Positions 558 through 14,278 of a DNA stretch of 64,000 nt are shown piece after piece. A model generated the notes under the pieces. The model made no database searches. It had not been told where the DNA came from and saw only the letters and a program-made list of their open reading frames with translations. Within the stretch, counting starts at the first letter, position 1. Each line of letters opens with the position of its first letter. Origin of the DNA: Pseudomonadota bacterium (GTDB taxonomy: Bacteria; Pseudomonadota; Gammaproteobacteria; Burkholderiales; Burkholderiaceae_C); contig JAJZUZ010000002.1 of assembly GCA_021845965.1 (NCBI GenBank), positions 1 through 64,000 on the forward strand. The letters run 5' to 3'. Position numbers and translations under genes: made by a program.

Positions 558-1916
558 ATGAAAACCTGTTTCGCCGTCGCAGCGGCGGATGTATTGCGCA
601 TGGGCTCGGCTTTGGCCGGGCTCTGCATGGTGCTGGCCGGCTGCGCGTCTTTCGAATCCAAGCCGATCGATCCTCAGGTCGAGGCATCCAAATTCGAGGC
701 CCAGGCCTTGGGCCCGGGACCCTGGGATGCCCCGGCCTTGCAACGCGCGGCTTGGCAGCGACACCCCGAGGCGGTGGCGGCAGAGGCCAGGCGCAAAGTC
801 GCCGAGGCAGCCGTCATCACTGCAGGGGGACGTCTCAATCCATCCCTGGCCGGAGTGATACAGAAAAACGTCAGCGCAAGCCCAGGCGCGGAGCCTTGGA
901 CCTATGGCCTGACCCTGGAAATCCCGCTGGAAGCAGCTGGAAAGAGAGCCAGCAGAGAGGCTCGCTCGCAGTGGCTCGCGCTGGCTGCCGCTTACATCGA
1001 AACCGACGTCCGATGGCGGATTCAGCTGCGCACCCGCGAAGCATATATCGGCGCCTATCCAGCCGATGAGCTTGCGGCCCAACGGCTTGACACCTTGGAT
1101 GCGCTGGCGTTGGAAACGCAAAAGCGACTGGAAGCGGGCCTGGTATCCAGCAACGAAGCCCTCCAAACCCGCCTAGCTGCCAGACAAGCAGCGCTGTCAC
1201 TCGAAGAAGCCCGTCGACGCCGAGGAGAAGCTTTGCGGCGTTTGGCAGCGTCCATCGGAATTCCTGAGCGAGCGATCCTTGAGATTGATCTTTCGTACTC
1301 GGACATCAGTTCCGATAGCCTGCGAGACGCCAAGACCCTCGATGCACTGGCAAAAAGCGCCTTGCAGGCCCGCCCCGACGTGCTGGCGGCCCTTGCGGAA
1401 TACGAGGCGTCTCAGGCCGCCTTGCAGTTGGAGATCGCTCGTCAGTACCCCAATGTTTCGATCGGTCCGGGCTATAGCTGGGACGCCGGAGACTCCAAAT
1501 GGAGCCTGGGATTTGCACTCCCATTGCCTTTGCTCAACCGAAACCGCGGCCCAATAGCGGAAGCTGAGGCACAGCGTGAAGCGGTGGCTGCAACTTTTCG
1601 AGTCGTCCAGGAACAAGCCATTGCCGAGATCACGGGTGCGTTGGCTGCCTACCGACAGACCATACGCACACTCGCAATAGCCCAAGCCGCCGCCGAGGAC
1701 ACCAAGGCGCTTGCGCGATCGGCCGAACTGGCCTTTCGTGCCGGTGCTACCGATCGTTTGGCTTTGCTAGCCGTCCGCCTGGAGGCCATCACAGCCGAAT
1801 CCACGCAAAACGACCTGATGCTGGCCGCGCATGCCGCAGCCGGGCGGCTCGAGTACGCCTTACGCATGCCATTGCCGCCCACGTCCCCCACCGCTTCGAA
1901 GGAATCCCAGCCATGA
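558..1916 (+). CDS. CzcC-like outer membrane efflux protein (TolC/OMF family)
   Basis: Lipoprotein-like signal (LAGCASF), long helical regions, GYSWDAGDSKWSLGFALPLPLLNRNRGPIAEAEAQREA typical of OMF; overlaps next gene by ATGA. Confidence 0.85.
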   Translation: MKTCFAVAAADVLRMGSALAGLCMVLAGCASFESKPIDPQVEASKFEAQALGPGPWDAPALQRAAWQRHPEAVAAEARRKVAEAAVITAGGRLNPSLAGVIQKNVSASPGAEPWTYGLTLEIPLEAAGKRASREARSQWLALAAAYIETDVRWRIQLRTREAYIGAYPADELAAQRLDTLDALALETQKRLEAGLVSSNEALQTRLAARQAALSLEEARRRRGEALRRLAASIGIPERAILEIDLSYSDISSDSLRDAKTLDALAKSALQARPDVLAALAEYEASQAALQLEIARQYPNVSIGPGYSWDAGDSKWSLGFALPLPLLNRNRGPIAEAEAQREAVAATFRVVQEQAIAEITGALAAYRQTIRTLAIAQAAAEDTKALARSAELAFRAGATDRLALLAVRLEAITAESTQNDLMLAAHAAAGRLEYALRMPLPPTSPTASKESQP

Positions 1917-2929
1917 ACCGCAAACTCACCTTAGCGATCGTGATCGCAGCCATCAGTGTGGTTGTAGCCTATCTGCTCTGGATGGGGTCCGTCACTCAAT
2001 CCGGTCAGCCGATGACAGATCCCATCAAGAAGGCATCGGATCCAGCGACCCTTTCCATGGATCAAACCGAGCGTGAGCGAGCCGCCATCGAAACGAGGCA
2101 AGCACAGGCAGGTTTTCAGCAGATGCAGTTCACGGCTCTGGCGACGGTGTTATCGGTCCAGGAACTGGTCGAGGCGGCCACATCGGTGGCAACAGCGCAG
2201 GCCCAATCGGACCGGGCCTCTGCACAACGGCATGCATCCCGCCGTGAACTGGATCGACTCCAGGCGCTGCATGCGCAGGATCGCAATGTATCGGACAAAA
2301 GCGTTGAAGCGGCCGAAGCGATGTGGCGCTCGGATGAAGCGGCTGTTCTTGCGACACGGGCCGCGATCGATGCTGCCGTCAGTTCTGCTCGTACCCGGTG
2401 GGGTTCTCAGTTGACGCAAGCACTGGTGAATCGAACCACGCTTTACCGACATCTGGAATCCCAACACAAGGTACTCCTGCGGGTTGTGGCGACCAGCGAC
2501 GTAACGCAGGTACAGATGCCCAAAACCATAGACGTGGAAGACCCAAGTGGCGTTTCTCGTCACGCGCAGCTGATTTCGCGTACCCCATCGGTAGATCCGC
2601 GAATTCAAGGCACCGCCTATTTCTATGTCATGGAGCCGCACGACACGGCTGCTGGTATGGTGCTGAACGCTCGTTTTCACACAGAGCTACCGCAGGCGGG
2701 TGCAGTCGTGCCCACGGACGCGCTGATCTGGTGGCAGGGCAAGCAATGCTTGTACGTCGAGACAGAGCCGGGGCGCTTTGAACGGCGTGTTGTCGTCTCA
2801 GCACGCAGGACCGGCGATGGGTGGTTCATCCCCGGGTTTCCGGCCGTTACCGTCGTCAGCCGAGGAGCCCAAGCCCTGCTATCCCAGCAAATGCGTTCTT
2901 CCATCAAGGTTGGCGAGGAGGGACCATGA
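1913..2929 (+). CDS. Efflux RND periplasmic adaptor subunit (CzcB-like)
   Basis: N-terminal membrane anchor, coiled-coil region, located between OMF and RND genes, overlapping start/stop codons on both sides. Confidence 0.8.
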   Translation: MNRKLTLAIVIAAISVVVAYLLWMGSVTQSGQPMTDPIKKASDPATLSMDQTERERAAIETRQAQAGFQQMQFTALATVLSVQELVEAATSVATAQAQSDRASAQRHASRRELDRLQALHAQDRNVSDKSVEAAEAMWRSDEAAVLATRAAIDAAVSSARTRWGSQLTQALVNRTTLYRHLESQHKVLLRVVATSDVTQVQMPKTIDVEDPSGVSRHAQLISRTPSVDPRIQGTAYFYVMEPHDTAAGMVLNARFHTELPQAGAVVPTDALIWWQGKQCLYVETEPGRFERRVVVSARRTGDGWFIPGFPAVTVVSRGAQALLSQQMRSSIKVGEEGP

Positions 2930-5900
2930 AACCATCTACGACGGGTCTTCTGGTTTCCATAGTCCGCGCGTCTTTGCGATACCGCGGAATCACGCTCACG
3001 GTCGCGGTTCTGTTGGCGATCTACGGGATTTTCCGCTTCCAGGATGCCCGATACGACGTGTTCCCGGAGTTCGCACCACCACAGATTTCCATTCAGACCG
3101 AAGCGCCAGGCCTGGCTCCAGAGCAAGTCGAATTGCTGGTGACTCAGCCCATCGAAAACGCAATCAATGGTGTGACGGGAGTTGCCCGTCTTCGATCCCA
3201 GTCGATTCAAGGCCTGTCCGTGGTAACGGTGGTTTTCGATCCGGATACGGAAATCCATATCGACCGACAGCATGTCACTGAACGTCTGGGGGCCCTGGCG
3301 GGCCAGCTTCCGCAAGGCGTGCAAGCACCCACCATGTCTCCCCTGACATCGTCGGTGAGCACGGTCTTGGTTGTCGGCCTGACCTCCAGTTCACGATCGA
3401 ACATGGACTTGCGCACACTAGCCGACTGGACCGTCAGACCGCGTTTGCTGGCTGTACCAGGTGTGGCCAAGGTCTCCGTTTTTGGCGGTGACGCGAAAGA
3501 AGTGCAAATTCAAGTACGGCGGGATCAGTCGGCCAGGTATGGTTTGGCCATGAGCGAGGTTGTCGAGGCAGCCCGCAAGGCCATCGGTTTACGTGGCGCC
3601 GGGTTCTTCGAGGACGCCAATCAGCGTGTCGTTTTGCGCACCGAGCCTACAACTGCGGCATCTCTGGCGGCCGTGGTCCTGCGCCGGCAGGAGGGTGCCA
3701 ATCTGACGTTAGGTGATGTGGCGCAGATCCGTGAGGCACCGGAGCCGCCGGTCGGGGCCGCCACAGTCAACGGTCTGGCGGCCGTCCAATTGATGGTTTC
3801 GGAGCAATACGGAGCCGACACGATGTCCGTCACCCAAGGCGCCGAACGCGCTCTGCGAGGTCTGCAGCGCCAGTTGGAAGCTGAGGGGGTAGAACTGCAC
3901 CCACAGATCTTCCGGCCGGCCAACTTCATTGAGACTGCCACCCGCAACGTCAAGGAGTCTCTTGCGATCGGTGCGGCATTAGTCGTCGTGGTCGTAGCGG
4001 TTTTTTTGGGTAACTGGCGAACCGCGCTGATTGCCTTGGCGGCCATACCTTTGTCTTTGCTCGCAGCGACGACGGTGCTGATCGAACGGGGGATAAGCCT
4101 GAACACCATGACGCTGGGCGGACTGGCAATCGCCATAGGTCTGCTTGTTGACGATGCCATCATCGTGGTGGAGAACGTTCACCGGCGGCTTGGGCAGAAC
4201 ATGCACGAGGTAGTTCCCCGGTCCCTGCCGCAAGTGGTTCTGGAGGCCACACTGGAGGTCCGTAGCGCCGTGGTCTACGCCACGCTGGCCATAGGCCTGG
4301 TGTTCTTGCCGGTCCTGACATTGCCTGGCCTGGCGGGCCGTCTGTTCACCCCTCTGGCAATCAGTTACCTGCTGGCCACCCTGGCTTCACTTGCGGTCGC
4401 AATTACCGTCACACCAGCGTTATCCTTGGTGCTGCTAACCAGGCACGCACCAGACCGACGAGCCAGTCGCTTCGTAATCAATCTCATGGCCCGTTATCAA
4501 CAGCTGATCACTCTGGCCGAATCCCATTGGCGCATTGTGGTCGCAGGCGCGGTGCTCGTCACGGCCATGGCTTTGCTGGCCTTGACCCGATTGGGTGGGG
4601 AGTTCTTGCCCGAGCTGCGCGAAGGACATTACATCGTTCATGTGTCCATGTTGCCGGGGACTTCGCTGGCGGAGTCGCTACGCGTCGGGCATGTCATCTC
4701 CGAGCGCCTGCTAAAGATTCCACAAGTCCGCTCTGTCGCTCAGCGCGCAGGACGGGCCGAACGTGCTGACGACACCTGGGGGCCCCACTACAGTGAGGTC
4801 GATGTCGATCTGTATCCATTGGCGTCCGAAGATGAGGCAGAAGAAGCAGAGTCGGCCATCCGCTCTGCCTTGTCGCAGACGCCGGGAATTGCCTTCTCGG
4901 TCAAAACGTTTCTGACCGAACGAGTGGAAGAAACCCTTTCGGGATACACAGCTGCGGTGGCCGTCAGTGTGTTTGGCCAGGATCTGCAGGCCCTCGATCA
5001 GGATGCGCAGCGCATAGCCCAGCTGCTGGCTTCCATCCCGGGAGCAACCGACGTTCATGTTGAATCCCCGCCGGGCGCACCCGAAATTTCTATAAGAGTC
5101 CGGAAAGAGGCGTTAACGCGATGGGGCTTGTCCGTGGCCGACGTTCTCGACACAGCACAAACGGCGTTTCAAGGAGCCATCGCGGGTCAGATTCAAGAAG
5201 GCAACCGAGTCTTTAATGTCAACGTCATCCTGCCTCCTGAAGCGCGCCGTGGCGTAGATGACATCAAGGCCCTGCCTATACGTTTGCCTGACGGAAGCCT
5301 GCTGCGCCTGGAGCGGGTCGCGGAGGTCAGCCCTGCTGCAGGTCGATATGCCGTGCTGCGCAGTGGCGCGCGTCGTGTGCAGACCGTAACAAGCAATGTG
5401 GCCGGCAGGGATGTCGCCTCATTTGTCGCCGAGGCCAAAGAGCGAATCGCGAATGAGAGCGCGGTGTCTGCTGGCAACTATGTGGAATTTAGCGGTGCTG
5501 CCGAGGCACAGGCGCAGGCAGCAGGCAAGCTGTTGGCTCATTCCGTGGTGGCGGCCATCGCGATTGCGTTGATGCTGTGGCTTGTTATGGGTAGCCTCAA
5601 GAATGTGGGATTGGCGTTGCTGAACCTGCCATTTGCGCTTTCAGGAGGCGTCCTAGCCTTAGTGATTTCTGGCGACGCGCTGTCGCTTGGAGCTTTGGTC
5701 GGTTTTGTGACCCTGTTCGGGATCAGCCTGCGTAATTCCGTCATGTTGATGTCCCACTATGAACACCTTGTCCAGGTAGACAAACTGCACTGGAGTTGGG
5801 ATGCAGCTGCTCGCGGTGCCGTTGATCGCCTAGTCCCCATCCTGATGACTGCGCTCGCAACTGCACTGGGATTGCTTCCCCTGGCTTGGGGAAGTGGCGC

Positions 5901-6042
5901 ACCTGGTCGTGAAATAGAGGGGCCAATGGCTTTGGTAATCCTAGGAGGATTGTTCACATCGACATTGCTGAACCTGTTGCTTTTGCCCAGTCTGGCGCTG
6001 CGGTTTGGCCACTTTGCTCCCCCTAAACTTGATGACCTTTGA
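2926..6042 (+). CDS. Heavy-metal efflux RND permease (CzcA/HME-RND family)
   Basis: Start MKPSTTGLLVSIVRASLRYR; YDVFPEFAPPQISIQTEAPGLAPEQVELLVTQPIE; LLVDDAIIVVENVHRRL; >1000 aa with RND topology. Confidence 0.92.
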   Translation: MKPSTTGLLVSIVRASLRYRGITLTVAVLLAIYGIFRFQDARYDVFPEFAPPQISIQTEAPGLAPEQVELLVTQPIENAINGVTGVARLRSQSIQGLSVVTVVFDPDTEIHIDRQHVTERLGALAGQLPQGVQAPTMSPLTSSVSTVLVVGLTSSSRSNMDLRTLADWTVRPRLLAVPGVAKVSVFGGDAKEVQIQVRRDQSARYGLAMSEVVEAARKAIGLRGAGFFEDANQRVVLRTEPTTAASLAAVVLRRQEGANLTLGDVAQIREAPEPPVGAATVNGLAAVQLMVSEQYGADTMSVTQGAERALRGLQRQLEAEGVELHPQIFRPANFIETATRNVKESLAIGAALVVVVVAVFLGNWRTALIALAAIPLSLLAATTVLIERGISLNTMTLGGLAIAIGLLVDDAIIVVENVHRRLGQNMHEVVPRSLPQVVLEATLEVRSAVVYATLAIGLVFLPVLTLPGLAGRLFTPLAISYLLATLASLAVAITVTPALSLVLLTRHAPDRRASRFVINLMARYQQLITLAESHWRIVVAGAVLVTAMALLALTRLGGEFLPELREGHYIVHVSMLPGTSLAESLRVGHVISERLLKIPQVRSVAQRAGRAERADDTWGPHYSEVDVDLYPLASEDEAEEAESAIRSALSQTPGIAFSVKTFLTERVEETLSGYTAAVAVSVFGQDLQALDQDAQRIAQLLASIPGATDVHVESPPGAPEISIRVRKEALTRWGLSVADVLDTAQTAFQGAIAGQIQEGNRVFNVNVILPPEARRGVDDIKALPIRLPDGSLLRLERVAEVSPAAGRYAVLRSGARRVQTVTSNVAGRDVASFVAEAKERIANESAVSAGNYVEFSGAAEAQAQAAGKLLAHSVVAAIAIALMLWLVMGSLKNVGLALLNLPFALSGGVLALVISGDALSLGALVGFVTLFGISLRNSVMLMSHYEHLVQVDKLHWSWDAAARGAVDRLVPILMTALATALGLLPLAWGSGAPGREIEGPMALVILGGLFTSTLLNLLLLPSLALRFGHFAPPKLDDL

Positions 6043-6399: not shown

Positions 6400-7308
6400 C
6401 TACCAGTCGGCAAATACTGCCTGGGCGGGACGGTCCTTGGCTAATAGTTCTTCTTCGTTGAGAATTCCAACAACCTTCACCTCCCAGTCTTGGCTCGAAA
6501 TCATGTAGACAAGCTCCAACTCCAACTTGACTAGTATCTGATGAAATTTTGAGAAATGTATCAGTCCCAACACTCTTGAGCCGGCCGCTGTATGAAGGGT
6601 GGCGTTAATGCGCTTCTTTGAGCTCAGAATATCGGGAAGTGGGCCACCAGTGTGATCGATGTGATGAATCTTGAATGACAAGGTGCCATTTGGCTTTCCG
6701 TCGTCGTCAACTGCTCGTACGTCAACCAGGGCGCGATAAGTTGAACGGCAAGGCAATTCTTTTTTTAGGTGTTCGTGTCCACCTAGGGTGACGCGCCCCT
6801 TCAACGAGTCGATCTCGATCCGTGGCTCTCGAGCTTGGGAGAGCATGTTGACAATCGTCAAAAAATCCTCGTCGACATTGATGTTGGCGATAAGGTCGTC
6901 GTAGTACTTGATCGAAAATCTTTCGATCCCTTCGACGACGCGCTCAGATGCGCGCCCAGCTTTGTAAATTCGATCGGCATGGAGAGCGCCCATCGCTTGT
7001 GCGACCAGTAGCGGATCGGCTGCACTTGTTCCGCCGTTTTCGAAGTCGAACTCCGCGTCAGGCTTTATCACCTCAAACACACCAAATCTGCCTGTGTCCA
7101 CATTAAGAGCCGTGACAAGAAGCTGATCGACAGCCGGGAGTACGCTTCTAATGCGCTGCTCGCGAGCAATTTCATCGGCATGCAGCTGTGCGCGAGTTAT
7201 CCAGCATGATGGGCCATTGCGTCGCGACTCGATCAACACCTGAGTCATGCGTTCCTGCTCAAGCATTTGACTTAAATACTGGCGCAAATCACTCGGTTTC
7301 ATAATCAT
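6400..7308 (-). CDS. Hypothetical protein (302 aa), directly downstream of the giant recombinase
   Basis: ORF with RBS-like AAAGGA before ATGATTATG; only 23 nt between the upstream gene's stop and its start; no family recognised. Confidence 0.7.
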   Translation of the reverse strand: MIMKPSDLRQYLSQMLEQERMTQVLIESRRNGPSCWITRAQLHADEIAREQRIRSVLPAVDQLLVTALNVDTGRFGVFEVIKPDAEFDFENGGTSAADPLLVAQAMGALHADRIYKAGRASERVVEGIERFSIKYYDDLIANINVDEDFLTIVNMLSQAREPRIEIDSLKGRVTLGGHEHLKKELPCRSTYRALVDVRAVDDDGKPNGTLSFKIHHIDHTGGPLPDILSSKKRINATLHTAAGSRVLGLIHFSKFHQILVKLELELVYMISSQDWEVKVVGILNEEELLAKDRPAQAVFADW

Positions 7309-7331: not shown

Positions 7332-10300
7332 CTAGAGAAGTAATCCATACAGAAGCCCTGCGACAGCCAGGTGGCCTGCACGACCGTAATGACGAGGCGA
7401 AGCCTTCAGGATGGCGGTGGCATCGCCGCGCCCACGTTTCGAAACCACACCCGTCCGGTCTTTGGCTGTTGACGCACTGAAGGCAAAAAGAAAACGCACC
7501 GTCGCGAGGCTGGACTCTGTGCTGTTGTCAGGGTGAATCAGCACGCCTGAGTTGCTTAACGCAATCTCCGCGTGAGGGAGCTGATGAAGTAAACGGTCTC
7601 GTCCTAGGCGCAAGGCGACGATGAAGCCTGCCTGTTGAATCACCTTTAGTACCGGGAGCAGGTCCAGCAACTGCGACTCGCAATGAATCGTCAAGCGCGA
7701 GCCAGAGCGATCGACGACGGCTGCAATCGACAATGCAGCTCGCACCAGCGTAGGTTTGTTAGCGCAGAGCCAATTTGCGTAGCATTGAATGACATCGTCG
7801 ATCGGCAACTCCTCGCCGCGGAGCCGGCAAACGGTTAGCGGAGTTCGCTCCACTCTGTGTGAGCGAATCCCAAGTGCGTTGCAGTGTTGGGTAAGGTTCG
7901 CGTGAGCCTTCTCCACGAGGTCCTGTGGCAGTTGTGCGGAGTCGCTTGCCGCAGGCACATCCTCTCCCATGGCGCACCTCAGTACAGCTGCTGTCAAGAT
8001 ACTACTATTTGATCCCTTAGATGTCGCTGGAAGGTTGGCGGACAAAGAGGCAATCGTAGGTCCCAGAAGTGGCGTTGGAAACTGGTTAGCCACGTCGCGC
8101 AGAAAGTCATCCAGAATTGTCTGGAAATGCGTTGCCTCAGTGCCGACATTGTCTTTGGAGCGCTTTCGAGATCGGTGCGCCGCGGCGTAAAGCGCCTGAG
8201 GTAGTTTCCCAAAGACAGCGGACAGATACTTGCCGGTGACCGTTGTGCCGACGCTGGCGAGATCGAGGTGGTGCCGGAGATCCAAGACGCCTGCGGAGTT
8301 GTAATAGCGCATCGTCGTGAGGGCGCTCGCATGTCTAGCTTGGCGCCCGGCCCATGCGAAACGGCGATGTTTCTCGCTAATCGAGGTTTCTGTATTTGTT
8401 GTGGATGTAATGCCAGTCCCCTCAGCCAGGCGATTGATTTCCTGGACGACGTCAAACGTACAGTCGGTCGCTGCCGCTGAACGCAAGTCATGCTGTCTGA
8501 AGTGAGTCTGCCCGGTTACATGGATGACGTCGTCGCGCATGGCCGCCGACACGAGATCGAATGCTGCGTAAGTGGCTTTCAATTGGACATCGGCGAAAAG
8601 CAAGGTGTGGGTACCGACACTAATAGCCCGACGTCGTTCAAGAAGTTGCTTCATTTCCTCAGCTAACGGTTCGCTCAACAGTACTGAGCCCCGGCTTCGC
8701 TGTGATTTGAGATGGATATGGCCATTGGTGGTGATGTGAAACAGTCTGGAGTTGGGGTCGAAGTCTTTTGGGCTTGAGTATCGTGGTTCACTGACTCGCA
8801 TTGGCGCCGCTCGCTGTAAAGCGAGCCTTAGACCGGCGAACGAAAAGGTTCCTCCGCGGCCTTCAAATTTCTTATCAATCAAACCCCGAGCAGCGGCGAT
8901 TTCCGCCTGCGTGGTGTACACGGGCAACCGCGGCCACGTCGCCTCCTTGCGTGACTGTGTCTCCAGAAAGCCAGGTGGAACCCGGTACCCGCGGGATTTC
9001 AGGAATGCACATATGTGCAGCATCTGCCAGCGCGCCGAACACGACTGCGTGAAATCTCGATTACCACCCATGGCAGCGTAAATCTCCAGAAAGATCTCCG
9101 GATCGAACTCGAACGCTCCCTCGCGGCGCGCGAAGTCAAAAAATACGCGGTATCCTCCGTCGTAGCTCGGGATAACAGTGGGGCTTAGCGTCCGATACGG
9201 CGCGTCGGGCTGAAGATCTGCACACAGCAGATCAATCCGAAGCGCTTCGGCCTGATCCAGTTCTGCATCGTCGCGACGAGCCTTGAGTTCGGCTAGGCAT
9301 CCCTTACGCCGTGCGCCCTCTTCACCGATGGGGGTATCTTTGTTCGCCCACCGTTTGAGAATTTGATGCGTCGGATCATCTCCAGTGCTGTTGCGCCACG
9401 GTCTTGCTCGGCCAGGTGAGGCTTCGCTTGTGGACAGGCTGCAGCTACGCTGGTAGTAGATGCGTGCAATGTCCTCGGCAGGGATAAACGGTGCCTTGTG
9501 AAGGGCGACGAACAAAGATCCTGCGGGAATCTCGACTGCCGCCCAGTGACTCGCCAGCATGGCCAGGAGCCTTGTTGAGTCAGCGGGGTCGCGCCCTGGC
9601 CAATTCCTGTCAAGCGTCAGAAGTAGGCGATGCATGGACCGCTGCGCATCTGTAATGGTGATAGGAGATTGCTCGTGCGCATGACGGGCAAGTGGTATAG
9701 ATGCCAATGTGCGATCAGTCGGTAGACGTTGCGCAACCGGGCGACCATCATGGCTAGCCTCGATGACTACAAGCCTTCCAGTCGACCAGACTCCATCGCT
9801 CAGCGCTGCATTGAGAAGCGCTTCTTGCTCTGACGGAGTCAGGACGAGTTCCCGCGATATCAAGCAGAACAGGAGGGCGCCAATCGGATGAGCCCGGACA
9901 ACATCGCACTCGATGTAACGACGGCTAAGCCGATTGAGATGGGCGTGGGCGAGCAAGGTCTTCGATGTCGAGGGGGGATCCTGCTCGTATATGCCAACAT
10001 CCTTGATCAATAGATCTGCTGCGGCTAGCTTGCGCTGGAGGAGTATGCTGGGCAGTGCCCTCAGAGTCCGTGGTGCGTGCAGGTCCGGCAGACAAAGGAA
10101 GCGGCTCGCCAGTCGCCCGCGCCCAATCAGCGGCCGAAACCCAAGGGCCTCTTGTAGTTCTGCGACGATAGGTCGAACATAGTCGCTGGCCTCCCTCACC
10201 GAAACTCCCGAACTGAAACCGAAGGCTTCCGCTCCGTTGAGATGATGTCCGAGAATTGCTTCGATAGCGACCTGAGCTACATCTCGCTCCAGCAACGCGT

Positions 10301-12377
10301 TAAACCAGAAGTGACGCGCCGCGTTCAGTTCGTCCACACCAAGCCTCTTTGCGAGATCACTCAGATCCTGGCGCAGAAGTGTTCTTGGGAGCCAGCCTTC
10401 AGACGTCTCCACGTAAATAAAAAAGGCACATTCATGCGGCCTCGCTCCCGCTACAACCTTGGTGACAAAGCCCGTGCTGCTCTCGCAAGCGCGTTCCAGG
10501 CTGTCAATCAGAGATCGAAGATGCTCGAGGTAGTGGCATCGTGTATGGGTTAAGACTTGTGTCGATGGAATGATGCGTTGTCGAGAGTAGCGATCTACCC
10601 GGCGATCGCTGATTGCGAAGTATGACTCGCTGGAGAAGAGTCGTTCAAAGGTAAGAGCAGGAATCCGATCGCCACGTCCTCCAATGCCCCAAATGATTTG
10701 TAGGGCCACTGCGCAGGTGTACAGGTTGTGAAACGCTAGGATTTGTGGGATCGAGGATTTGGGGGTGAGCTGATTTCTGGCTCTCATGACCATTTGATTC
10801 AGTTTGGTCATTGCCTCTCGAAATGCGACTAGAGTGAGAACCTTGGGGGTGCCAATCTGGCGATCGCGCACCGGTGCATCTGGTGGCGTGAGCCCAGCCC
10901 AGTGGCAAAACATCACCATGGCGCTATGAACCTGCGACTCGGAGATGCTGAAGTAGTAGTGGTCAGACGCAGGCGTCACCATCGTGTCACCGGTGATCCG
11001 GGAGACCAGAGCAGGATGGACCTCAAGTGCCAACAAGGCGGGACGCAGACTCATGGCAAACCTGGTGTCCTCCGGCCGGTGACTCGAGGGCCAGGCGTCG
11101 TTAAGCAGCGATTGGCACGCTTCGTAGTCCAAGCCGACTGCATGGATGAGCTCGCCCAGTGTCCGCGCTTGCGGGCACTCGTGCCAAATGTCTTGTAAAG
11201 CTCGGGTTACCTCCTTAGGCAAGCGCGTACGCCACCAGCGACCATGAAAGCGTTTGCGATCTGCGCGGTCCGCTCTGGGCGCAATGGCCAAAGCATCACG
11301 CCGAATCACCCCATGTTTGATGTCCAACTTCATTGAGCCGCGTCGGTGCAGAGGCAGGCGCAGGCACTTTTTCAGAGATATCCCAGCAAAAAAGGACACC
11401 ATTCGCGCTGCGGCATGCGCTCGGCGTTTTCGCGATATTTCTTCGGTGCTGAAATTCAGAAGGTCGCCTTTAAGAATCTGAAGCAGTGGGTGGAGCTCAT
11501 CGGGATGCAGCCGGCCCCAATGCACTGGAAGGCGGTAGCCGTCGACGACGTCCTGCTGGCAATCCCGTTGCTTTTGAAGCTCGAAGAGATCCAGGCGTTC
11601 GGTGACGTCGTCCGGGCGCTTCTCCTTCGGAGCGCTAGAAGGTTCCTCTGCTCTGAGCTCGGAATGGTCCGCGGCTGGCGTAGGTGAGAGCACCTTGAGA
11701 TCCAAATAGCTGGAGGCGGACGGGATGCTCGTTCGATGCAGCTCGAGCAGGTCTGATCGAAACTCGTGAACCGCGGCAACCGTGGTTACAGGCGTCCAGG
11801 TCTGCAGTTGCTCAACGCTTAGGAAATCCTGGGCACAGAATTCGAGCCAACCTTCTTTTTCGGATCGGAATAGCTGTCGCAACCGGTCAGAGAAGCGACT
11901 TGGTGTGCGGTGAAGACTAAAGACGACGGCCATGAATGCATGCCCAGCAATGGCCAAAGATCGTTTGCGTTGCTCAGTTGTTCTGCTTGGCGACGGCTGA
12001 GCGATGATTACTTGCAGGATCGGATGTGGATAAACGTCTTGTTTGTCACAGGCTGCTAGCGCCGACAGGTCGGTGTCGCTCGCGGCCATTTGCTCGAATG
12101 CGACGGCCCAGGCTGTAGATTCATTGCAATGGGGAGCTCGTTGCCTCAGACCAATCGCAACGCTTCGCAAAACGATCTGTTGCTCCCGTTTGGGCAGGAG
12201 TCCTATCCCTGTCTTTGCGTGCAGGTACGTGGCGAGACGTGTCTGCTCCTCCACAGGGACGTGGGGATATGTGTCGGAAATTGGCGGTTGTGGCTGTGCG
12301 CTCAAATCAATCCCTCGAGAAGGCGTGCGGCGTGGACGTAGTCGTGCCCAGCTGCGGGGTGAAAAATCACCCCCCAA
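7332..12377 (-). CDS. Giant site-specific tyrosine recombinase-like protein with two recombinase-like regions (up to 1681 aa)
   Basis: Distal region has GLR-like box LQRAAPMRVSEPRYSSPKDFD, HLKSQRSRGSVLL (Lys strand), QHDLRSAAATD (HxxR), and RHASALTTMRYYN (H...Y). Proximal region has GIGGRGDRIPAL, ELNAARHFWFNALLERDVAQVAIEAILGHHLNGAEAFGFSSGVS. Start codon uncertain. Confidence 0.8.
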   Translation of the reverse strand: MGGDFSPRSWARLRPRRTPSRGIDLSAQPQPPISDTYPHVPVEEQTRLATYLHAKTGIGLLPKREQQIVLRSVAIGLRQRAPHCNESTAWAVAFEQMAASDTDLSALAACDKQDVYPHPILQVIIAQPSPSRTTEQRKRSLAIAGHAFMAVVFSLHRTPSRFSDRLRQLFRSEKEGWLEFCAQDFLSVEQLQTWTPVTTVAAVHEFRSDLLELHRTSIPSASSYLDLKVLSPTPAADHSELRAEEPSSAPKEKRPDDVTERLDLFELQKQRDCQQDVVDGYRLPVHWGRLHPDELHPLLQILKGDLLNFSTEEISRKRRAHAAARMVSFFAGISLKKCLRLPLHRRGSMKLDIKHGVIRRDALAIAPRADRADRKRFHGRWWRTRLPKEVTRALQDIWHECPQARTLGELIHAVGLDYEACQSLLNDAWPSSHRPEDTRFAMSLRPALLALEVHPALVSRITGDTMVTPASDHYYFSISESQVHSAMVMFCHWAGLTPPDAPVRDRQIGTPKVLTLVAFREAMTKLNQMVMRARNQLTPKSSIPQILAFHNLYTCAVALQIIWGIGGRGDRIPALTFERLFSSESYFAISDRRVDRYSRQRIIPSTQVLTHTRCHYLEHLRSLIDSLERACESSTGFVTKVVAGARPHECAFFIYVETSEGWLPRTLLRQDLSDLAKRLGVDELNAARHFWFNALLERDVAQVAIEAILGHHLNGAEAFGFSSGVSVREASDYVRPIVAELQEALGFRPLIGRGRLASRFLCLPDLHAPRTLRALPSILLQRKLAAADLLIKDVGIYEQDPPSTSKTLLAHAHLNRLSRRYIECDVVRAHPIGALLFCLISRELVLTPSEQEALLNAALSDGVWSTGRLVVIEASHDGRPVAQRLPTDRTLASIPLARHAHEQSPITITDAQRSMHRLLLTLDRNWPGRDPADSTRLLAMLASHWAAVEIPAGSLFVALHKAPFIPAEDIARIYYQRSCSLSTSEASPGRARPWRNSTGDDPTHQILKRWANKDTPIGEEGARRKGCLAELKARRDDAELDQAEALRIDLLCADLQPDAPYRTLSPTVIPSYDGGYRVFFDFARREGAFEFDPEIFLEIYAAMGGNRDFTQSCSARWQMLHICAFLKSRGYRVPPGFLETQSRKEATWPRLPVYTTQAEIAAARGLIDKKFEGRGGTFSFAGLRLALQRAAPMRVSEPRYSSPKDFDPNSRLFHITTNGHIHLKSQRSRGSVLLSEPLAEEMKQLLERRRAISVGTHTLLFADVQLKATYAAFDLVSAAMRDDVIHVTGQTHFRQHDLRSAAATDCTFDVVQEINRLAEGTGITSTTNTETSISEKHRRFAWAGRQARHASALTTMRYYNSAGVLDLRHHLDLASVGTTVTGKYLSAVFGKLPQALYAAAHRSRKRSKDNVGTEATHFQTILDDFLRDVANQFPTPLLGPTIASLSANLPATSKGSNSSILTAAVLRCAMGEDVPAASDSAQLPQDLVEKAHANLTQHCNALGIRSHRVERTPLTVCRLRGEELPIDDVIQCYANWLCANKPTLVRAALSIAAVVDRSGSRLTIHCESQLLDLLPVLKVIQQAGFIVALRLGRDRLLHQLPHAEIALSNSGVLIHPDNSTESSLATVRFLFAFSASTAKDRTGVVSKRGRGDATAILKASPRHYGRAGHLAVAGLLYGLLL

Positions 12378-12888
12378 CGTGATTGGGACGAATCAAAGAG
12401 ATGAGCTCTGCGATCCAGATTCAGGAAATCACAAGCCAAGCTGGCCTATGGTGTGGGCCAACCTAAATCGGGATGCAGCCGTGAAGGCCGGTACCCGCCA
12501 GAGCCGATCGAGGTTCTGGATCCATGCGCCACGCTGGCAATGCCACGCGCGACTGGAAAGTTTTATGCGTCAGTCTTGTCGACGCGCTACATCCTCAAAG
12601 TGAGGAGGCTTGATCCTGCTAGGCAGCAGGAAGGCCGGTGCGAAGCACAGGGCATTAGTACATCAATGGACCCAATGGTCGCAATTCGGGAATGCAACCT
12701 GTCTGAATTTCCGATCCATCAGAATCAGCGACCTCACGTGTGAGTGGGTTAGACTGGGATCAATGTGAGGTAAATGACGCTGATACGATGACGCGTAAGT
12801 TGTTGAATTGATAGGGTACAATTCAGACACGCTGGGTTGGGGGCGTCTATTAAAGTCGACTAAAGACTTGCTAACCATATCAAGAACT

Positions 12889-12948
12889 TGGTCAACGAGA
12901 GGCCTCATAACCCAAAGGTCGGAGGTTCAAATCCTCCTCGCGCAACCA
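12889..12948 (+). pseudogene. 3' portion of a tRNA-fMet gene (candidate att site), 5' half missing
   Basis: tggtcaacgagaggCCTCATAACCcaaaggtcGGAGGTTCAAATCCTCCtcgcgcaACCA: CAT anticodon loop, perfect T-arm, encoded CCA, A72 typical of initiator tRNA; the upstream 5' half does not fold as a tRNA. Confidence 0.75.
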
Positions 12949-12972
12949 AACAACGCGGTACACCGCGACCTG

Positions 12973-13030: not shown

Positions 13031-14278
13031 TCAGCCGATCAGGTAGTAGGCCGCCGTGGCGCCCCGCCGCGCCCGGGCCTTGTCCAGCTCCTCGCGCGCC
13101 AGCACGCGCAAGTGCACTTCGTCCGGCCCGTCCAGGAAGCGCATGGCGCGTCCCCAGGTCCAGAGCGCCGACAGCGGCGTATCGGGCGTGAGCCCCATGG
13201 CGCCGAAGATCTGGATCGCCCGGTCCAGCACGCGGTTTTGCAGCTGGGCGGCCACCAACTTGATGGCCGAGACGTCCACGCGGGCGGCTTCGCCGCCGCG
13301 GCGGTCCAGCAGCCAGGCGGCGCGCAGCACGAGCAGGCGCGCCTGGTCGATCTCCACGCGCGAGTGGGCGATCCAGTCCTGCACATTGGCGAAATCCCCC
13401 AGGTACTTGCCGAAGGCGCGCCGTTCCAGCGCACGCTCGCACATCATCTCCAGCGCCAGCTCGCACTGCCCGATGGTGCGCATGCAATGGTGTACGCGCC
13501 CGGGTCCCAGGCGCGCCTGCGCCAGGGCAAAGCCGGCACCTGGCGCCCCGAGCAGGGCGTCCACTGGCACGCGCACGTTGCGAAAGACCATCTCGCAGTG
13601 TCCCTCCGGCGCGAGGTGGTGCATGACCGGAATGTTGCGCACGACCTCGACGCCAGGCGCGTCCATGGGCACGATGGCCATGGAATGACGCCGGTGCGGG
13701 TCGGCGTTCGCGTCCGTATCCGATGCGCCCATCACGATGGCGAAAGCGCAGTTCGGGTGGGCGGCGCCGGTGATGAACCATTTGCGCCCGTTGATCACGT
13801 AATGGTCGCCATCGCGCAGGATGGTGGTCTGGATGTTGGTGGCATCCGAGGAGGCGACGTCGGGTTCGCTCATGGCAAAGCAGGAGCGGATCCGCCCCTC
13901 CAGCAAGGGGGCCAGCCAACGTTCCCGCTGCCCGGGTGTGGCGAACAGATGCAGCAGCTCCATGTTCCCGGTGTCCGGCGCGCTGCAGTTGAACACCTCG
14001 GGCGCCCAGGCGACGCGGCCCATGATTTCGGCCAGCGGCGCGTACTCCAGGTTGCTCAGGCGCGTGCCGGGCTCATCGTCGCGCAAGCCGGGCAGGAACA
14101 GATTCCACAGACCCAGGGCGCGTGCCTGCGCCTTGAGCGGCTCCAGCACCGCCAGCGGGTAGACGCCGCGGTCGGCCAGCCCTTGCCAGTCGCGGATGCG
14201 TGGCAGCACGCGCTCGTCCATGAAGCGCTGCAGCGTGCGCTGCATCTCGTGGTTCTCGTAGCCGAACTCGAAGTCCAT
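13031..14278 (-). CDS. Acyl-CoA dehydrogenase family protein
   Basis: MDFEFGYENHEMQRTLQRFMDERVLPR; CFAMSEPDVASSDATNIQT; YLGDFANVQDWIAHSRVEI; IQIFGAMGLTPDTPLSALWTWGRAMRFLDGPDEVHLRVLAREEL. Confidence 0.93.
   Translation of the reverse strand: MDFEFGYENHEMQRTLQRFMDERVLPRIRDWQGLADRGVYPLAVLEPLKAQARALGLWNLFLPGLRDDEPGTRLSNLEYAPLAEIMGRVAWAPEVFNCSAPDTGNMELLHLFATPGQRERWLAPLLEGRIRSCFAMSEPDVASSDATNIQTTILRDGDHYVINGRKWFITGAAHPNCAFAIVMGASDTDANADPHRRHSMAIVPMDAPGVEVVRNIPVMHHLAPEGHCEMVFRNVRVPVDALLGAPGAGFALAQARLGPGRVHHCMRTIGQCELALEMMCERALERRAFGKYLGDFANVQDWIAHSRVEIDQARLLVLRAAWLLDRRGGEAARVDVSAIKLVAAQLQNRVLDRAIQIFGAMGLTPDTPLSALWTWGRAMRFLDGPDEVHLRVLAREELDKARARRGATAAYYLIG

Follow-up and report, generated by a model that had tools for sequence, protein, structure and literature searches.

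A giant tyrosine recombinase with a fused recombinase-type domain that lacks the catalytic tyrosine, the probable integrase of a genomic island in a tRNA-fMet gene

Introduction

Tyrosine recombinases (TRs) work by half-of-the-sites chemistry, with two of the four protomers inactive at any moment. Some mobile elements build inactivity into their gene content by encoding a degenerate TR-type protein next to active ones. For example, GInt islands encode GinA, GinB, GinC, and GinD, all four gin genes being essential, and GinC is a degenerate TR-fold protein that works together with active recombinases (PMC5385486). Strand-biased circularizing elements (SEs) encode IntA, Tfp, IntB, and Srap, of which Tfp is a recombinase-fold protein without catalytic residues (PMC10214605). 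Recombinase-in-trio (RIT) elements carry three separate recombinases of 315-410 aa, all with the catalytic Tyr (PMC10214605, Table 1 note), and ordinary tRNA-targeting islands carry an integrase of ~400 aa, as in Islander (PMC4383910). The Gamma-mobile-trio (GMT) consists of GmtY, GmtZ, and GmtX; it combines a recombinase with a second, large integrase-like protein and a third protein of ~200 aa.

The locus analyzed here lies in a 64-kb stretch of DNA (the window), the first 64 kb of a 109-kb contig in a metagenome-assembled genome (MAG) that is 83% complete. An earlier note on this DNA had proposed that a single ORF of ~1681 codons holds two recombinase-like regions, and this was borne out: 7332..12377 on the minus strand is one unbroken ORF of 1,681 codons, running from TTG 12377 to 7332, with a TR region in its middle (proximal) and another toward its C terminus (distal). 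The gene call is supported by the open frame and by an end-to-end homologue (L070/L093), and the two-domain observation is, at the level of sequence, far above chance. TTG 12377 has no evident ribosome-binding site; because GAGGGA precedes TTG 12305, the latter is the likelier start, giving a predicted protein of about 1,657 aa. The giant protein matched no NCBIfam model. It is followed, 23 nt downstream, by a 302-aa partner gene (6400..7308, minus strand) that has an AAAGGA ribosome-binding site and belongs to no known family.

As in GInt islands, a recombinase operon stands at the island end with cargo behind it and a small accessory protein in attendance; unlike GInt, which has three separate TR-type proteins plus the small GinD, the window has a single chain in which one unit is active and the other inactive, alongside a ~300-aa partner. 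The ginABCD layout is thus absent, one fused TR gene and one ~300-aa gene being found at the edge, and GinC was compared by its published description only. The locus resembles SEs, whose operon combines a recombinase-fold protein lacking catalytic residues with active recombinases, but differs in that SEs have two active recombinases and four separate genes; comparison of the pAQU1 SE proteins with the proximal and distal profiles gave no significant match beyond short motifs. RIT elements are similar in having several TR units per element, whereas the single chain with one active unit lacks the three adjacent, separate, active recombinases that define them. The GMT resembles in layout the split form of the family described below, but neither the window nor those relatives that were scanned matched a GMT model in NCBIfam, and the positive control (L137), which NCBIfam recognizes, was not recognized by the giant-integrase family profiles.

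The earlier note had regarded an active/degenerate pair in one chain as a distinct architecture. This holds for the fusion and for the reduced gene set, which appear to be new, but not for the pairing itself, which is already known from GinC and Tfp (PMC10214605, PMC5385486). Searches of the open-access literature on fused or tandem tyrosine integrases returned nothing relevant, which falls short of proof of absence. The arrangement is therefore real, conserved, and apparently undescribed, a variation on the known theme of a recombinase with a degenerate partner in which the partner is fused and there is one active unit.

The island edge and its tRNA target

The giant gene lies next to a truncated tRNA gene. 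At 12904..12953 (plus strand) lies a presumed attachment-site remnant, made up of a tRNA-fMet 3' half and a further 6 bp; its 50 bp match the intact gene on contig C22 exactly, from the first base of the anticodon loop onward; Rfam did not recover this half tRNA. The leader that separates the giant gene from the crossover point (12378..12903) presumably contains the element-side att sequences; it has one 15-nt inverted repeat (12695-12709/12820-12834), and a search for arm-type repeats across it found none. GC content is 0.52-0.63 to the left of about 12.9 kb, including 0.58-0.63 in the cargo, and 0.65-0.70 to the right of the edge. The likely cargo (558..6042, plus strand) encodes an outer-membrane efflux protein (Pfam OEP, E = 1.9e-30), a 338-aa protein, and an RND transporter (ACR_tran, E = 4.3e-236). 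The chromosomal flank holds an acyl-CoA dehydrogenase gene (13031..14278, minus strand); several genomes of the window's genus have a homologue of it, with 71-74% identity at the DNA level. In the island segment of the window, the operon of the giant gene is the only one with the look of a recombination gene. The contig start (window:1-120) has, by eye, a transposase-related look, which may explain why the assembly ends inside the island and the left end is missing.

A T-loop scan that covered as much as 2.5 kb of upstream sequence at the recombinase genes of 23 loci picked out three of them, the window, L070, and L077, and the matches share one orientation. In each case an exact repeat of 47-51 bp of an intact tRNA gene of the same genome was found (fMet in the window, Arg-CCG in L070, and Pro-CGG in L077), and all three repeats start at the anticodon loop or no more than two bases away from it. 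These att sites differ from those described for GInt, which are protein-gene ends with imperfect repeats of 10-17 nt, as opposed to tRNA anticodon loops with repeats of about 50 bp in the three cases here. The elements resemble ordinary tRNA islands in that the tRNA is split at the anticodon loop, with a displaced 3' fragment at one end and, in the L077/L113 case, an intact copy at what may be the other. They differ in that the integrase is about four times larger, has a second, inactive domain, and sits beside the displaced fragment. An island integrase usually adjoins the intact tRNA. The intact tRNA-Pro of L113, on a separate contig from L077, sits where GC falls from about 0.60 to 0.46, which would fit the opposite end of an island; it is the sole intact-tRNA junction with a GC shift that was seen, and the corresponding end of the window island lies outside the contig.

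Most relatives had no tRNA fragment in the T-loop scan, so target choice appears to vary and to include other targets. In several other relatives, the GC content likewise shifts just beyond the recombinase gene, and an empty-site comparison of one relative's island (G092 versus G711) found one boundary and not the other. As side observations, the leader of L070 (coordinates of L093) contains a second copy, 89% identical, of a 19-nt stretch of the tRNA-Arg anticodon arm (9629-9647 and 9402-9420), which lies 227 nt from the attachment site and is a candidate second binding site; and the sequence just 3' of the intact tRNA-fMet differs among genomes of the window's genus (L060, which is G000:C22, and L061, L062, L063, and L067), as at an insertion hotspot.

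The distal recombinase domain

The distal unit (residues 1040-1419; 8121..9260, minus strand) is supported by Pfam Phage_integrase, a 24-member profile, and residue counts. Its catalytic residues in the window are R1194, K1224, H1296/R1299, H1349, and Y1358/Y1359; the complete set of motifs that had been read from the sequence is located where it was claimed, with the Tyr codons at 8301-8306. The distal Phage_integrase domain was the sole Pfam match on the whole giant protein, covering residues 1186-1305 with E = 4.5e-6 and 27.0 bits against a curated cut-off of 27.1. Among 24 divergent relatives, the distal Arg, Lys, and Arg and the aligned nucleophile Tyr are each present in all members, the second His in 23 (Gln in the remaining one), and the first box II position is His, Tyr, or Arg in 20, 3, and 1, respectively. 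The Tyr lies mostly at H+10 (counted from the second His), compared with H+9 in XerD. The 24-member profile matched XerA, Tn1549 Int, XerH, and Cre in the PDB. Together with the Pfam match and the residue counts, this indicates that the distal domain carries the TR superfamily catalytic set R-K-H-R-H/W-Y, and the C-terminal unit is, as far as its residues and profile matches tell, a complete XerC/D-like recombinase.

Fused and split relatives

When 301 genomes of the same family were searched, seven further ones had matches, mostly in uninterrupted frames of 1,393-1,872 aa, with one split pair in addition; order- and phylum-wide searches added further relatives. The closest (L070, the same as L093), in a Rhodocyclaceae MAG, matches end to end at 29% identity over 1,662 aa, and fused chains, mostly of 1,670-1,950 aa, occur in over a dozen genomes besides this one. 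In a two-domain tree, the window falls in a clade of seven fused members with support of 100/99, and two changes between the fused and the split state suffice over 24 rows. The end-to-end homologue and the all-fused clade argue that the fusion is stable, inherited, and no artefact. The search for full-length homologues proposed in the earlier note thus yielded L070 over its whole length and, as to genomic position, three elements, the window included, beside split tRNA genes.

In more distant relatives, the halves occur as neighboring genes, for example at L011, L078, L080, and L083 and on plasmids of Acinetobacter, Vibrio, and Ketogulonicigenium, a Sphingobium plasmid carrying a seemingly shortened version. 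The two-gene state therefore exists in nature, though not in the closest relatives. Of four annotated split pairs, three overlap, by 4-19 bp, which fits one functional unit. A tblastn search of plasmids with the window protein found no match, whereas other family relatives do match plasmids, and no relative was found among the viral contigs searched. The giant gene most likely encodes the integrase of an island type that is widespread. Two loci (L017 and L082) have a frameshifted appearance. One genome of the window's genus (G015) holds two different family members, L013 and L017, which are 38% identical, one of them split near the C terminus, and at L076 both domains, proximal and distal, lie in a 1,326-aa ORF that comes after one of 777 aa, through either fission or a frameshift.

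The proximal domain and the proposed role of the fusion

The proximal pseudo-recombinase domain (residues 490-754; 10116..10910, minus strand) is supported by the match of a 25-member profile to XerD (1a0p) and by residue counts. In the window, it has R568, R592 (Lys in relatives), R601, N685 in place of His, R688, H711, and F719/F721 near the expected Tyr. Of the motifs previously placed around 10210-10340, box II is indeed there (N685-A-A-R688 and ILGH711), whereas R568 (GGRGD), the Arg of box I, is found at a higher coordinate, near 10675. The window region alone was not recognized by Pfam, and Phage_integrase was found in 9 of the 25 members at E values up to 1, the best being 7.9e-5. The 25-member profile, on the other hand, matched XerD (1a0p, E = 1.7e-8) and archaeal XerA (4a8e, 1.1e-6) in the PDB with boxes I and II in register, and the proximal and distal profiles find each other with an hhalign probability of 73-85%. 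AlphaFold models of residues 230-790 and 780-1681, built with four admissible sequences, were poor (pLDDT 43 and 46), and PDB fold searches with them gave nothing significant, although the top ranks for the distal half were mostly tyrosine recombinases, among them XerH, Tn1549 Int, and Cre. With models of this quality from four sequences, the fold assignment rests on the sequence profiles.

The alignments comprise 24-25 members at 13-38% identity to the window, 16-38% in the proximal set. Across the latter, R568 is conserved in 25/25, the K592 position in 24/25 (the window having Arg), R688 in 25/25, and H711 in 24/25. The Asn that had been noticed in place of the first box II His is N685 in the window and is found in 23/25 members. 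The claim of Phe at the expected nucleophile position also stands, the window having Phe at H+8 and H+10 and Ser at H+11. No member (0/25) has Tyr at H+9 or H+10. Tyr does occur at H+11, where the family varies, in 6/25; the window has thus clearly lost the nucleophile, but the loss is not proved for all members. The proximal domain is homologous in sequence to the Int catalytic domain and lacks its catalytic Tyr: as the alignment reads, it is a recombinase-type domain that keeps the Arg, Lys or Arg, Arg, and His predicted to grip the DNA phosphate, without the tyrosine nucleophile. Retention of these four residues, together with the Asn in 23/25 and the missing Tyr at H+9 and H+10, argues that the inactive twin is conserved and not decaying. 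Conservation over 24-25 divergent relatives thus supports the proposal of an active and an inactive unit paired in one chain.

Our analyses suggest that the giant protein is probably the site-specific integrase of a genomic island in a tRNA-fMet gene, with a fused, non-cleaving recombinase-type partner. This reading is based on the complete distal site, the conserved proximal site without Tyr, the inherited fusion, the tRNA halves, and the GC step. The distal domain would cut and rejoin DNA at the 7-bp anticodon loop, whereas the proximal domain would grip DNA through its Arg/Lys/His pocket without cleaving it. The fused inactive domain may sit on an adjacent recombinase-binding site within that synapse, as a protomer that never cleaves and that determines specificity, direction, or the order of the strands; such a structural partner would have its precedent, by analogy, in GinC and Tfp.

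We consider it rather unlikely that the proximal domain is instead a DNA-binding regulator of the island that acts outside the synapse, with the fusion merely coupling expression. Non-cleaving regulators with the TR fold are known, MrpR of SPbeta being described as a recombinase-fold repressor without cleavage (PMC10516654), and the Arg, Lys, and His of the pocket also touch DNA. The tight coupling to an active recombinase, in fused and split forms alike, and the strict retention of pocket residues that are important at the scissile phosphate speak against such a role. It is very improbable that the proximal domain is active through a shifted tyrosine, which would make the chain a double recombinase. 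The six members with Tyr at H+11 and the distal H+10, versus H+9 in XerD, indicate that the spacing can vary, but in the window H+11 is Ser and neither H+9 nor H+10 is Tyr, H+11 is itself variable, and Asn replaces the first His in nearly all members. That the proximal domain is a decaying copy, or that misassembly or a frameshift joined two genes that normally stand apart into this ORF (the outcome that the earlier note had named as refuting its reading), is scarcely credible despite the separate halves of many distant relatives and the frameshifted look of L017 and L082, since end-to-end homologues with the same fused architecture rule out an assembly fusion, the all-fused clade is well supported, and the proximal Arg, Lys, Arg, and His persist in 24-25 of 25 members as little as 16-38% identical to the window.

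Returning to the integrase with a non-cleaving partner, a permanently inactive domain that is fused in many lineages would allow a direct test of the role of the inactive protomer. It also explains very large proteins, annotated as "hypothetical" or "site-specific integrase," that annotation does not recognize, the proximal half being mostly invisible to Pfam, and suggests that Proteobacteria have an island type which may escape tools built around integrases of ~400 aa. More speculatively, each active protomer may bring its own fused or translationally coupled non-cleaving protomer, the synaptic complex being asymmetric by construction across a widespread class of islands. If so, the asymmetric synapse would enforce one-strand or strictly ordered exchange, possibly completed by replication, as opposed to the symmetric two-step Holliday pathway.

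Partner genes

A gene for a ~300-aa protein lies closely 3' of the giant gene in most members of the window's clade; alongside L010, no partner gene was seen. The L070 partner occupies the corresponding position and is homologous to that of the window (E = 2e-4), whereas the partners of L012, L069, L013, and L017 make up a second group, whose sequence relation to the first is weak (leave-one-out E = 0.15). This ~300-aa operon protein may serve as an accessory factor, in place of an excisionase or of Srap/GinD. Most split systems have instead a gene for a protein of 160-240 aa just upstream, which by profile is unrelated to the ~300-aa partner; at L078, L080, L083, L011, L085, and L087, it usually overlaps the start of the pseudo-recombinase gene. 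Comparison of these upstream proteins with one another by blastp gave no significant matches. By eye, several of them share a motif, hydrophobic-G-(F/x)-x-x-F/hydrophobic-x-x-A, that is reminiscent of ParB-like N-terminal domains.
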